64,000 nucleotides of DNA, taken from NCBI GenBank assembly GCA_037074765.1, contig JBAMDO010000575.1, forward strand, positions 62,001 to 126,000. Reading direction: 5' to 3'. Position 1 is the stretch's first letter. Each line of letters opens with the position of its first letter. Origin of the DNA: Mansonella perstans (taxonomy: Eukaryota; Nematoda; Chromadorea; Rhabditida; Onchocercidae). This document shows positions 22,953 to 30,866 of the stretch, piece by piece. The notes beneath the pieces are model-generated. The model made no database searches and was not told where the DNA came from. It saw only the letters and a program-made list of their open reading frames with translations. The translations under genes were made by a program, and so were the position numbers.

Positions 22953-22964
22953 TAGCATGACTCA
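22953..22964 (-). promoter_or_regulatory. conserved downstream element of H4
   Basis: The sense strand reads TGAGTCATGCTA, starting about 10 bases after the stem-loop. The same element recurs behind all five histone genes here. Function unknown: it may be a processing or termination signal, or a DNA-level bZIP (TGAGTCA) site. Confidence 0.6.
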
Positions 22965-22973
22965 CAGATTTGT

Positions 22974-22989
22974 GGCCCTAAAGAGGGCC
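22974..22989 (-). terminator. H4 histone mRNA 3' stem-loop
   Basis: The sense strand reads CCCAAC then GGCCCTCTTTAGGGCC: a perfect 6-bp stem with a 4-base loop, the binding site of SLBP/CDL-1, 70 bp after the H4 stop. It is followed by ACAAATCTG and the shared TGAGTCATGCTA element. Confidence 0.95.
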
Positions 22990-23059
22990 GTTGGGTTTTG
23001 TGCGCAGAAAAATTATTACGCTGACGAAATTTTCTCGGCGAAACTGAAGTTTTTGAATT

Positions 23060-23371
23060 TCAGCCACCAAAACCATACAGTGTACGTCCTTGACGTTTCA
23101 GTGCATAGACAACATCCATTGCTGTAACCGTCTTTCGTTTCGCATGTTCACAATATGTAACTGCATCACGTATGACATTCTCCAAGAATACTTTCAGTAC
23201 GCCGCGTGTTTCTTCATAGATTAAACCCGAAATGCGTTTCACGCCACCACGTCGTGCCAAACGTCGAATAGCCGGTTTCGTGATTCCTTGAATGTTGTCG
23301 CGCAGAACTTTTCGATGACGTTTCGCGCCACCTTTTCCGAGACCTTTTCCACCTTTACCACGTCCAGACAT
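23060..23371 (-). CDS. H4: Histone H4
   Basis: Complete 103-codon intronless H4, a nucleosome core histone of the H3-H4 tetramer. The sequence is essentially canonical: [20 protein letters not shown] through GRTLYGFGG. Cys replaces the common Thr just before EHAKRKT, as in nematode H4. There is no intron and a 3' stem-loop rather than a poly(A) signal, so this is a replication-dependent gene. A TATA-like TATAAATGGCC lies on the minus strand about 100 bp upstream of the ATG, followed further out by a three-copy 52-bp promoter array. Confidence 0.99.
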
Positions 23372-23465
23372 GATTAACTGTTAGACCAATCAATAACACA
23401 GCACAATGACCGCCAATCGCTACCGCACACAATCCAATTGAACTAGCCATAACCTCCATTCATCG

Positions 23466-23476
23466 GCCATTTATAC
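23466..23476 (-). promoter_or_regulatory. H4 TATA box
   Basis: The minus strand reads GTATAAATGGCC about 100 bp before the H4 ATG. Its position matches the TATA boxes of the other histone genes in the cluster. Confidence 0.65.
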
Positions 23477-23493
23477 TCATTGGCTTTACGACC

Positions 23494-23645
23494 TCACCGG
23501 GACATCAATAAGGCCACGCCCATATTGGCGCGTGACTTGCAAACCACACTGGGATACCAGTAAGGGCACGCCCATATTGGCGCGTGAATTGCAAACCACG
23601 CCGGGACACCAGTAGGGACACGCCCATATTGGCGCGTGAATTGCA
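23494..23645 (-). promoter_or_regulatory. H4 promoter array, 3 x 52 bp, with E2F-like cores
   Basis: Three copies of CACGCCCATATTGGCGCGTG, at 23515-23534, 23567-23586 and 23619-23638, sit at exact 52-bp spacing within a longer repeat (TTGCAAACCACGCCGGGACA in between). Each contains a TTGGCGCG E2F-like core and is almost an inverted repeat (CACGCCC/GGCGCGTG). Confidence 0.7.
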
Positions 23646-23674
23646 AAAAATCACGTCTTGATATTTTTAAAACT

Positions 23675-24058
23675 CTACATTGCTACAGTGAAATTAATTA
23701 AAGTATCACCGGGATATCTCGGGGTACCCGGAATCTTTTCGGCATTATAGGAACACAAGTGTAAACAAAACATATGCTATAGATCAATATCTATTTATTG
23801 GAACAGGAAACACTTGCTTCATATCTTGCTCATTTTAAAGTAAATCAATAGACAGAAATGAAAATGAAAACTCTGCATTGCTTCCATGAAATTGACTGAA
23901 ATATCATTGGGATATCTCAGGTACCAGGAGTTTTTTCAGCATTGTAGAAACACAAGTGTAAATAAAATATATATTATAGACCAGTATCTATTTATTGGAA
24001 CAAGAAACGCTTCATATCTTACTCATTCATTTTAAAGTAAACCAATAGGCAGAAGGGG
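23675..24058. repeat. tandem duplication, about 195-bp unit
   Basis: Two diverged copies begin AAAACTCTACATTGCT at about 23667 and AAAACTCTGCATTGCT at about 23866. Both contain ACACAAGTGTAAA and ATCTATTTATTGGAACA, at roughly 85 percent identity by eye. Confidence 0.8.
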
Positions 24059-24440
24059 AAATTCTGGGCAACAATCGATAGTATATCAAAATGTATGAGA
24101 GGAATATTGTAAAAGAAAACTTTTACTCTCGCATTTTTCTTTGTTTGATTTAAATAGATTTAGCAATCTCCCGGGAGGGCAATGGAGTGATCAGAATGAT
24201 GAAATTTCAAATTAGTTTTACAAATAATCAATGAGTGAATGAAGAAATGTTTTAAGTAATCAAGCTAAAAATATTACTAGGCAAATTACTGGTGAATTTA
24301 TTTTCCTTGCTGTATGGTCTTGATGCTTTGAGAGAATGCGGGTGGAGATTAGTCGTAGAAGTATTACCATTGAAGATATAAGTGTAAATTTTGCAACAGG
24401 ACAAGGAATCCCCGCTTGTCTTAAAAAAAATGGCCCAGAA
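24059..24440. other. intergenic stretch
   Basis: No gene or repeat family recognised. Confidence 0.35.
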
Positions 24441-24444
24441 CTGG

Positions 24445-29235: not shown

Positions 29236-29301
29236 TTTAGAGGAGAACCAGGTCAATGCTTTGCACAACAATGTCTGAATAACCAGACTAACCAATAGTC
29301 T

Positions 29302-29330
29302 CCTTTTATATATTCCCATTTTCCCGCCAA
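29302..29330 (-). promoter_or_regulatory. H3 promoter: TATA and E2F-like site
   Basis: On the minus strand TATATAAAAGGA (29302-29313) is immediately preceded by an E2F-like GGCGGGAAAA (29319-29328, plus-strand TTTTCCCGCC), about 70-90 bp before the ATG. Confidence 0.65.
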
Positions 29331-29339
29331 AATTGTTGG

Positions 29340-30045
29340 ATGACCTCTAATAGACACACCCATTTTTGATTTTTCTAGAACATTCATAAAATGAGGGACT
29401 ATCAGGGACCAATCGATTTATTGCTATTATAATTTTTTTTGTTTTTGCTTCAATGAATTATATTATTCGAAATATTGTTGAAAAATTAAACAATTTTTTC
29501 AAAATAAATTAATTAAAATCATTTAAAGGAAATAAACTCGAAATGTATTTTATAAATGATTTAAATTTCAATGAAATCTTTTCTTTTTTGAAGAATTTAC
29601 ATTAAAACTATAAAATTGATTTTTTTTGAAAAATTATTTAAAGGCGAAAAATAAGAAAAAATTTTCAATTTTTTTATTGTACAAATAGAATTATCAATAA
29701 GAATTTCGAAAATTTGAAAAAAGTTATTCAAAGTTTTTATTCTGTTAATTTTCACGTTATTTTAGTACGGAAGCAAGAACTATTGCTATTAGCGTAATTC
29801 TACGAATAAATTTAAATTCTAGCCATTATGCCTGCTTTCTGTGAATTATTTGGAGTAATAATAGCATTCTGCGTGATATATGTGAAGCATGTAATATGGT
29901 AAGTGTATGTAGCACTTACAATTCAGTCATCAGATTTTTCACGTTATTTTCCACGTTACATTTTTCGCAGATGCCCATGCAAGACACGTAACATATAAGA
30001 GACATTTTTCGCCTTTGATAATAACCACTTTACAAAATTTAATTT
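29340..30045. other. very AT-rich spacer between H3 and H1
   Basis: Dominated by A/T runs. No gene recognised. It separates two divergent histone genes and so carries both upstream regions. Confidence 0.45.
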
Positions 30046-30050
30046 GTAAA

Positions 30051-30100
30051 TTCCCGCCAATTTGTGCAATTTTGGCGGGAAAATGGAGCATTATATAAAG
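30051..30100 (+). promoter_or_regulatory. H1 promoter: inverted E2F-like pair and TATA
   Basis: TTCCCGCCAA at 30051-30060 and its inverse TTTGGCGGGAAAA at 30071-30083 form a palindromic pair, followed by TTATATAAAG at 30091-30100, about 60 bp before the H1 ATG. Confidence 0.7.
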
Positions 30101-30156
30101 GTGATCGTCTGCTATTTTAGTATTAGTGGCGTAAAGCGTAGTGTTAATATTCGGCA

Positions 30157-30795
30157 ATGGAAGTATCAGCTGTTGAGTTGCCTTTAGCGACGTCGATAGG
30201 CATGTCAAGCACGAAGTCTCCGATCACAAAGTTTCCGGTCACAGGGTCTCCGATTATGAAATCTCTGATCAAGAAATCTCCAGCCGCGAAATCTCCAAAA
30301 CAACGATTGGGAGCTTATACAGCTCCCAAAGTACGTTCAAAACGACAAGGCACGAAAGCGATGAAAAATCATCCGAGTTATTCTCAAATGATCAAGGAAG
30401 CGATTACTGCTTTGAAGGATCGAAAAGGTTCAAGTCGTGTGGCTATCCTGAAATATATTTCTGGCCATTATCAATTGGGTGATAACGGTAAACGTGTACA
30501 TTCTCAACTTCGATTGGCCATCAAGAAGGGTATTACATCGGGGAAGTTTACACTTGCAAAAGGTGCTGGTGTGAATGGTTCCTTCAAACTTGGTACCACT
30601 AAAGTGGAAGGTAAGCCAAAGAAGGAATCGAATAAGCCAAAAAAGAAGACATCGAAGAAAGAAGGAAAAGGTAAGATTGTTGTTTCTGATTCTCCTAAGA
30701 AACCGCTGAAGAAGAAAGTAGCAGTTGTAGCAAAGAAGTCATCGAAAAAGAAAATGAAGACAAGCAAGCCGAAGCCGAAAAAAACAACGCCATAG
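30157..30795 (+). CDS. H1: Linker histone H1
   Basis: 212 codons, intronless. The globular winged-helix domain spans about residues 70-145 (HPSYSQMIKEAITALKDRKG, SRVAILKYISGHYQLGD, VHSQLRLAIKKGI, GVNGSFKL), followed by a Lys/Pro/Ser-rich C-terminal tail that binds linker DNA. The N-tail is unusual: repeated Ser/Thr-Pro phrases (TKSPITKFPVTGSP, KKSPAAKSPKQ), which look like CDK sites. Having the histone stem-loop and being linked to the core genes marks it as replication-dependent. The first ATG at 30157 is used; a second Met at codon 16 (MSSTKSP) could also serve. Confidence 0.98.
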   Translation: MEVSAVELPLATSIGMSSTKSPITKFPVTGSPIMKSLIKKSPAAKSPKQRLGAYTAPKVRSKRQGTKAMKNHPSYSQMIKEAITALKDRKGSSRVAILKYISGHYQLGDNGKRVHSQLRLAIKKGITSGKFTLAKGAGVNGSFKLGTTKVEGKPKKESNKPKKKTSKKEGKGKIVVSDSPKKPLKKKVAVVAKKSSKKKMKTSKPKPKKTTP

Positions 30796-30829
30796 TGTTA
30801 CGTCTATGACGTTGGTTCCATAACCCAAC

Positions 30830-30845
30830 GGCCCTCTTAAGGGCC
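30830..30845 (+). terminator. H1 histone mRNA 3' stem-loop
   Basis: CCCAAC followed by GGCCCTCTTAAGGGCC, 34 bp after the stop. The loop is CTTA instead of CTTT, the only hairpin in the cluster that differs. Confidence 0.93.
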
Positions 30846-30854
30846 ACAAATTTC

Positions 30855-30866
30855 ATGAATCATGCC
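30855..30866 (+). promoter_or_regulatory. conserved downstream element of H1
   Basis: TGAATCATGCCA about 10 bases after the hairpin, the most diverged copy of the shared element. Confidence 0.5.

Follow-up and report, generated by a model that had tools for sequence, protein, structure and literature searches.

In vertebrates and Drosophila, the hairpin at the end of a histone message is followed by a nearby histone downstream element (HDE), to which a short RNA, the U7 snRNA, base-pairs through its 5' end. According to the available part of one account (PMC7026596), the mouse H2a element has the purine core AAAGAG, the Drosophila HDEs are AU-rich with a purine core, and the CU end of the U7 Sm site is virtually invariable and never there in spliceosomal snRNAs. 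C. elegans is without an identified U7, as stated in the accessible text of PMC6509145 (citing Davila Lopez and Samuelsson 2008), yet its messages end much like those of other animals. Keall et al. 2007 (PMC1924863) place these ends 3-6 nt past the hairpin and describe an AATCC element at the HDE position, proposed there as an HDE, so that the initial view of C. elegans as lacking a recognised HDE was only half right. CSR-1 and endo-siRNAs have been proposed for C. elegans histone 3' cleavage (PMC11125478, excerpt), and K07A1.15 is annotated as the Lsm10 orthologue in PMC5737717, the available text of which names neither an Lsm11 gene nor a U7 RNA. No report of a nematode U7 snRNA was found among the titles and abstract openings listed; this search lay largely outside the subscription literature, and absence from print is not claimed.

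Here we analysed a 64,000-nucleotide stretch of Mansonella perstans DNA (the window), in which a 12-base block stands in transcript orientation behind the hairpin of every histone gene (5/5), as the sequence-only reading had noticed. We consider it probable, at roughly 0.86, that this block serves a nematode U7 snRNP as its histone downstream element, with a candidate for the U7 snRNA on contig C60. The features of the window are as follows.

23060..23371, minus strand, histone H4 coding sequence, 103 aa
22974..22989, minus strand, H4 histone stem-loop (hairpin scan)
22953..22964, minus strand, H4 downstream element (putative HDE) TGAGTCATGCTA, positions 1-11 pair with the U7 candidate
25872..26240, minus strand, histone H2B coding sequence, 122 aa
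25801..25816, minus strand, H2B histone stem-loop (hairpin scan)
25780..25791, minus strand, H2B downstream element TGAGTCATGCTA, positions 1-11 pair with the U7 candidate
26643..27023, plus strand, histone H2A coding sequence, 126 aa
27055..27070, plus strand, H2A histone stem-loop (hairpin scan)
27080..27091, plus strand, H2A downstream element TGAATCGTGCTA, positions 1-11 pair with the U7 candidate
28825..29235, minus strand, histone H3 coding sequence, 136 aa
28759..28774, minus strand, H3 histone stem-loop (hairpin scan)
28738..28749, minus strand, H3 downstream element TGAGTCATGCTA, positions 1-11 pair with the U7 candidate
30157..30795, plus strand, histone H1 coding sequence, 212 aa
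30830..30845, plus strand, H1 histone stem-loop, loop A variant GGCCCTCTTAAGGGCC (hairpin scan)
30856..30867, plus strand, H1 downstream element TGAATCATGCCA, 10 nt after the stem, positions 1-10 pair with the U7 candidate

The five hairpins compare with 0.03 expected per shuffled window (up to three mismatches). They had been described as identical, and a hairpin is indeed present behind all five genes, H1 differing by the loop base A. Likewise, the linker ACAAATCnn ascribed to all genes holds for H4, H2A and H3, while H2B has ACAACTGGA and H1 has ACAAATTTCA; the spacing, given as about 9-11 bases past the stem, comes to 9 nt for four genes and to 10 for H1, 11 never being seen, and the H1 element ends at 30867, one base beyond the previous limit of 30866. 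The lack of conservation in the flanks was borne out: over the five window genes, with H1 shifted by one base, the mean share of the commonest base reached 0.93 within the element, compared with 0.51 at +22..+60, 0.57 at +61..+100 and 0.46 at -60..-25. The motif alone is not enriched in the window (32 occurrences against 30.6 expected, up to two mismatches), and one exact match, at 51764-51775, is without a hairpin. What goes beyond chance is the fixed place and orientation of the element behind every hairpin, not the motif itself.

Within the 75.7 Mb genome, the element was found behind all ten histone hairpins detected, always in one orientation, 9 nt from the stem at 8 sites and 10 nt at 2. 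Absence of the block behind histone genes outside the cluster had been named as an observation that would speak against a processing role; instead, the block stands behind all five hairpins elsewhere in the genome. These five copies are related to each other, belonging to H2B-like genes and H2B-derived relics, and hence are not five independent witnesses. Their kinship would suit an element without function of its own, a similarity left over from gene duplication or conversion, but the five cluster genes encode different histones and their flanks have diverged around the conserved element, which makes this explanation the least probable of those considered. Three histone genes on contig C61 have no hairpin, and no element was found up to 250 nt away from them. 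At 7 of the 10 sites the nearest AATAAA downstream is 62-201 nt away, and at the other 3 there is none in the 384-385 nt examined. At its 3' end the element reads GCTA or GCCA in the window and ACTT in the class on contigs C171 and C213.

The heptamers TGAGTCA and TGACTCA are AP-1/bZIP sites. A DNA-level role of the block, as a bZIP/AP-1 site acting on transcription or termination, had been offered as the alternative, and three window copies do contain TGAGTCA. However, the heptamer is kept at only 3 of the 10 sites, the others having TGAATCG, TGAATCA, TGAGTTA or TGAATTA, and the uniform orientation directly behind the hairpin at 9 or 10 nt also argues against such a site, so that we regard this role as highly improbable.

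The search of the genome for an Sm-site RNA complementary to the block, which the sequence-only reading had proposed, yielded the candidate on C60. The pattern by which it was found matches 129 places and the reversed pattern 10; since the reversed pattern differs in composition, we relied on a Markov null instead, and places joining the core with AATTTGTC are no more numerous than this null expects. The candidate (C60:~58-134) has a promoter-like element, a guide, an Sm site and a 3' hairpin with a UUCG loop; it lies at the contig start, where a 41-aa reading frame that runs off the contig edge overlaps it. The guide, 5'-AAGUAUGAUUCA-3', pairs (Watson-Crick or G-U) with positions 1-10 at all ten sites, position 11 at 8 and position 12 at 4. 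Since ATGATTCA was the basis on which the candidate was chosen, the pairing of positions 1-8 carries no independent weight; a guide UAGUAUGAUUCA had been predicted from the G-U pattern ahead of the search, and three of the four bases outside the search pattern agree with it. Of 1000 random sequences given this core, 53 paired as well as the C60 guide.

The Sm site AATTTGTCTA at C60:91-100 fits the U7 consensus AAUUUGUCU with its CU end. It is followed by a 3' terminal stem-loop (C60:102-134, -8.3 kcal/mol) with a closed CUUCGG loop. Among 20000 null stretches, a closed CUUCGG hairpin occurred in 1, an energy of -8.7 or lower in 1041, and such an energy together with a TA start in 53. The 83-nt C60 RNA as a whole folds no better than shuffles (z -0.74). 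Upstream, a PSE-type promoter element has 13/16 identity to that of one U2 gene and 10/16 to that of the other at matching distance, a match equalled by 18 of 40000 random stretches; judged by eye, its fit to two U5 elements is poorer. The position of the U2-like element places the transcript start near base 58; an RNA reaching from there to base 134, with both ends putative, would have ~77 nt, set against ~60 nt for U7 snRNA. The Rfam U7 model (RF00066) gave no U7 match on the candidate at E up to 10.

Sixteen AATTTGTC candidates, drawn from the 100 of the 129 pattern places that were listed, were compared, and 4 of these 16 have AATTTGTCT. C60 came out ahead of the others in hairpin, loop, promoter and pairing energy, its summed duplex energy of -162.7 being the best of the 16 (next -137.8). 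If a U7 snRNP does read the element as an HDE, its true U7 snRNA could also come from another locus, for example one of the remaining 29 pattern places, C60 being a look-alike or one of two U7 variants: the C60 guide mismatches the window elements (GCTA or GCCA) at position 12, where ACTT, the ending in the C171/C213 class, is a better fit to it, and the candidates came from 100 of 129 places. Among the 16 places listed and examined, however, only C60 joins the Sm site, the stable UUCG hairpin, the promoter element and the best pairing, and we consider another locus unlikely.

An earlier search, for AAATT within 30 nt of the element complement, gave 90 places, with 27 for its reversed counterpart; 20 of the 90, inspected by eye, were without a U7 or spliceosomal Sm site where expected, as was a further place in L071, near the SLBP gene, and the window match at 51764 was ruled out as U7, being without an Sm site. 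RF00066 found nothing above cut-off over the genome (65 of 32813 candidates scored); among 11 sub-threshold loci, TAGYATGAYTCA (at most one mismatch) occurred once, ~370 bases away from the U7-like match. An Rfam scan of the window gave nothing at gathering scores. A histone hairpin scan for stray nematode sequence gave no match in a set of viral contigs and, in a set of genome contigs, no exact match and three degenerate ones in bacterial records.

In the U7 snRNP, Lsm10 takes the place of SmD1, and Lsm11, with a split Sm domain and an N-terminal extension, that of SmD2. Candidate genes for these ring proteins and SLBP were also found. The Lsm10 candidate on contig C521 matches LSm10 best by profile (7.8e-12; next LSm4, 6.3e-10), also by hhalign (4.9e-11 versus 5.4e-8 for the next), and separate SmD1, SmD3, Lsm2 and Lsm4 genes, assigned by eye, are present besides it; an SmD1-like tandem gene (L099) considered as a stand-in was dropped for this better candidate. 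The Lsm11 candidate on contig C84, with relatives in nine filarial and thelaziid species, matches LSm11 by profile (3.9e-8; next SmD2, 8.4e-6) and hhalign (1.4e-7 versus 1.6e-5), the single-sequence margin being thin (0.0014 versus 0.0021 for SmD2). Both its Sm motifs align to LSm11, and its relatives, at 212-259 aa, are extended at the N-terminus; N-terminal similarity to human LSm11 exceeded that of shuffles in 3 of 5 sequences and not in 2. A PDB search gave no LSm11 match for the candidate's N-terminus, and a piece of human LSm11 had no match in the genome in a search without positive control. A DNA pattern for FDKxWN, by which the candidate came to light, has at least 166 genome matches; the 6 exact ones listed lie in 5 stretches, of which only C84 has Lsm11 context. 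The SLBP RNA-binding domain (PF15247) is encoded at C30:361963-362103 (E 1.4e-13).

These candidates bear on the C. elegans type of route, in which Argonaute-bound antisense small RNAs (CSR-1 type) would read the element. Small RNAs copied from each target would need no common sequence at ten sites, and the genome retains Lsm10 and Lsm11 candidates, which we infer to be without a known role in that route; we therefore judge it very unlikely here, despite its proposal for C. elegans.

Under the U7 reading, SLBP would bind the histone hairpin first; then, 9-10 nt beyond the stem of the pre-mRNA, the 5' part of the C60 RNA would pair with UGARUYRUGC(U). A ring containing Lsm10 and Lsm11 on AAUUUGUCU would then recruit the nuclease CPSF73, cutting between stem and element at about ACAAA^ and leaving a non-polyadenylated histone mRNA. 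The element, guide complementarity, U7-type Sm site, 3' hairpin and promoter-like element are present as sequence, as are the Lsm10 and Lsm11 candidate genes and the SLBP domain; transcription of the U7 candidate, particle assembly, cleavage and its site we infer. The proposal of a 3'-processing signal pairing with an RNA is supported, this RNA now being most likely U7 snRNA. The core TGARTYRTGC is not purine-rich as in vertebrates, as had been remarked; pairing with the U7 candidate, the block would work as an HDE nonetheless.

As in vertebrates and Drosophila, a hairpin is followed by a nearby element, here at 9-10 nt, complementary to the 5' end of a short candidate RNA that bears AAUUUGUCU and a 3' hairpin, with Lsm10 and Lsm11 candidates alongside. 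Unlike the purine core of mouse H2a, the filarial element is UGARUYRUGC, and the filarial guide is altered to match. With C. elegans it shares a conserved element directly after the same hairpin; the AATCC core there is immediately followed by AATAAA (PMC1924863, available part), in contrast to the more distant filarial AATAAA, and the filarial genome has candidates for both components left unnamed in C. elegans.

Thus, most likely, this is a known kind of system found where it was thought to be missing. The full candidate set (HDE, U7 snRNA, Lsm10, Lsm11 and SLBP) gives named genes, e.g. Brugia malayi Bm10989 as Lsm11, and suggests that the mechanism can persist through joint changes in the U7 guide and its target. 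More tentatively, and with the odds somewhat against it, nematodes at large may never have lost U7: the C. elegans AATCC would be an HDE, K07A1.15 would be part of an overlooked U7 snRNP, and the small-RNA route would have joined U7 processing without replacing it. Drift in guide and stem would then be the reason why homology searches missed the U7 RNA of C. elegans, just as Rfam misses the filarial candidate. If so, a search combining the complement of the local element, AAUUUGUCU, a hairpin and the local snRNA promoter would find the U7 of C. elegans.

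The sequence-only reading had placed five hairpins, each followed by a block, in the histone cluster of the window, and all of them stand at their places, with small corrections to positions and details. Across the five genes, stem-loop, linker and 12-base element had commonest-base shares of 0.99, 0.84 and 0.93, vs 0.51 in the following 39 bases, in agreement with the claim that sequence beyond the element is not conserved. The motif alone is not rare (32 matches in the window with up to two mismatches vs 30.6 expected), thus the evidence lies in the fixed place and orientation of the element. 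The pattern is also matched exactly, without a hairpin, at window 51764-51775 (+), and a tandem repeat at window 4363-4607 (48-base unit, about 5 copies) carries on its minus strand TGAGTCTTGTTA, the likeness of which to the element is probably due to chance.

Using the hairpin pattern with up to three mismatches, we screened the genome containing the window (75.7 Mb, 539 contigs). The search yielded ten places, vs none for the reversed control:

Window: five hairpins, identified by the hairpin pattern search
Contig C171: two hairpins, 3' of H2B-like genes
Contig C213: three hairpins, two of them behind a short remnant of the H2B C-terminus (14 aa, E 0.001-0.002)

The third C213 hairpin had no histone match upstream. 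TGARTYRT lies past the stem at all ten hairpins (9 nt in eight sites, 10 nt in two). The block is thus not confined to the cluster, as it stands behind all five hairpins of C171 and C213, which are mutually related copies and not five independent witnesses. These stretches (L056, C171:86001-96000; L057 and L058, C213:31001-51000) hold H2B-like genes and relics derived from H2B that make up another, diverged class; their stems mostly carry a G-T pair (GGTCCT..AGGGCC), and one copy has GGTGCTCTGTAGGGCC. In four of their five copies the element ends in ACTT, not GCTA. Within 250 nt of the H4, H2A and H2B genes of C61 (L059, C61:224501-234000; H4 99%, H2A 97%, apparently intron-bearing H2B copies) neither hairpin nor element was found; these genes are perhaps polyadenylated. 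The PF00125 search left the H4 of the window itself unlisted, and may therefore also have passed over other H4 genes that lack a hairpin.

At element positions 1-10 the sites differ by transitions only (A/G or C/T), and each variable position can be read by a single RNA base (U or G) able to pair with either variant. Because the transitions fit one U/G base per position, we derived the guide 5'-UAGUAUGAUUCA-3', recorded ahead of the genome search. The U7 search pattern (ATGATTCA, then 0-28 bases, then AATTTNTC) matched 129 places, 100 of them listed, vs 10 for the reversed pattern. AATTTGTC was read at 16 places among the matches listed, a count that shows nothing, since about 16 per genome are expected under a Markov null (31 occurrences in a simulated 300 Mb). 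All 16 were retrieved and scored, and four share AATTTGTCT.

The proposed search for an Sm-site RNA complementary to the element located one candidate, C60:58-134, which carries AATTTGTCTA. Among the 16 places listed it alone has a CUUCGG loop, and it ranks first in hairpin energy (-8.7, vs -5.9 for the runner-up), in promoter match (13/16 vs 11) and in pairing energy (-162.7 vs -137.8). The loop of mouse U7 is UUCG. Of the four guide bases predicted but absent from the search pattern, three agree with the AAGT that stands 5' of the core. Of 20000 null stretches, 1 had a closed CUUCGG hairpin, 53 had TA with an energy of at most -8.7 and 1041 reached this energy with or without TA. The promoter element was defined from two types of U2 genes of the same genome; the candidate matches one type at 13/16 and the other at 10/16. 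A score of 13 was reached by 18 of 40000 random 73-nt stretches, and judged by its spacing from this element the RNA would start at about base 58. By eye, the upstream element of two U5 genes resembles it more weakly. These U5 genes and one U2 form an snRNA cluster (L130, C415:12600-20600), with more U2 copies elsewhere on C415. No ORF of at least 50 aa with both start and end was found in C60:1-170; a reading frame of 41 aa that runs off the contig edge overlaps the candidate, and an exon may therefore lie here. The Rfam model gives no support for U7 family membership, which would rest on architecture and guide.

The guide pairs with positions 1-10 at all ten sites, with position 11 at eight and with position 12 at four; the ACTT-ending elements suit position 12 better than those of the cluster. 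Because the candidate was selected for ATGATTCA, the independent evidence is positions 9-12 and the relative energies only, and full shuffles (mean -89.4; 0/2000 match the candidate) overstate the case. Of random guides with the same core planted, 53/1000 pair equally well. The energy of the candidate RNA itself was -82.7 against sequence upstream of the hairpin and -93.9 against sequence 100 nt downstream.

A PF01423 genome scan yielded 16 matches above cut-off, by eye SmD1, SmD2, SmD3, SmE, SmF, SmG, Lsm2-Lsm8, NAA38, an extra SmD1-like gene and one Lsm10-like exon; an SmB exon and a second SmG exon fell below it and no Lsm1 was seen. The extra gene (L099, G000:C108:168260-168560), a diverged tandem copy 2.7 kb from SmD1, clearly belongs to the SmD1 family (best E 2.6e-14). 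An SLBP domain is also present in the genome. Human LSm11 as query did not find Lsm11; its candidate was located via the pattern FDKxWN.

Lsm10 candidate: C521:58456-58579 and an exon from 59029, two exons, 116 aa
Lsm11 candidate: C84:168396 encodes FDKHWNLLI and C84:168997 encodes RHLPFSLIRGDDVVLI

The named relatives of both are filarial or thelaziid nematodes throughout: for Lsm10 Loa, Acanthocheilonema, Cercopithifilaria, Elaeophora, Onchocerca and Setaria (58-72% identity), for Lsm11 nine sequences (46-62% identical, at least 92% of the query covered). Another three Lsm10 relatives are listed without a name. By itself the Lsm10-like exon scores higher with LSm4 and LSm2 than with LSm10. 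For the spliced protein LSm10 is top (7.5e-8), followed by polyubiquitin chains, through many weak repeats, and by LSm2 and LSm4 (~5e-6). The profile (LSm10 7.8e-12; next yeast LSm4 6.3e-10) and hhalign (4.9e-11 vs 5.4e-8) suggest a moderate lead over LSm4, of which the genome appears to carry a separate gene. As one sequence, the Lsm11 candidate is separated by a thin margin (LSm11 0.0014, SmD2 0.0021), and more clearly by profile (3.9e-8 vs 8.4e-6) and hhalign (1.4e-7 vs 1.6e-5). Its N-terminal part had no LSm11 match in PDB, and against the human N-terminus it scored above shuffles in three of five sequences and not in two. REARLSQM was likened by eye to the human helix whose R109, R112, L113 and L116 contact CPSF73, as described in PMC12774660.

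According to PMC1924863, C. elegans has the same histone hairpin, a conserved AATCC element as a possible HDE and mRNA ends 3-6 nt beyond the hairpin; the filarial element likewise has this hairpin ahead of it. PMC6509145 states that U7 was not identified there and PMC11125478 reports the proposal of a CSR-1 route, and K07A1.15 is listed as C. elegans Lsm10 without known phenotype (PMC5737717). The consensus for the Sm site of U7 and the pairing with the HDE follow PMC7026596; U7 snRNP, HDE and downstream element do not occur in PMC12803260. The sequence evidence comprises the element, a matching RNA gene and two putative U7-specific protein genes, from which we infer U7 expression, particle assembly and cleavage. 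The element behaves like an HDE and most likely is one.
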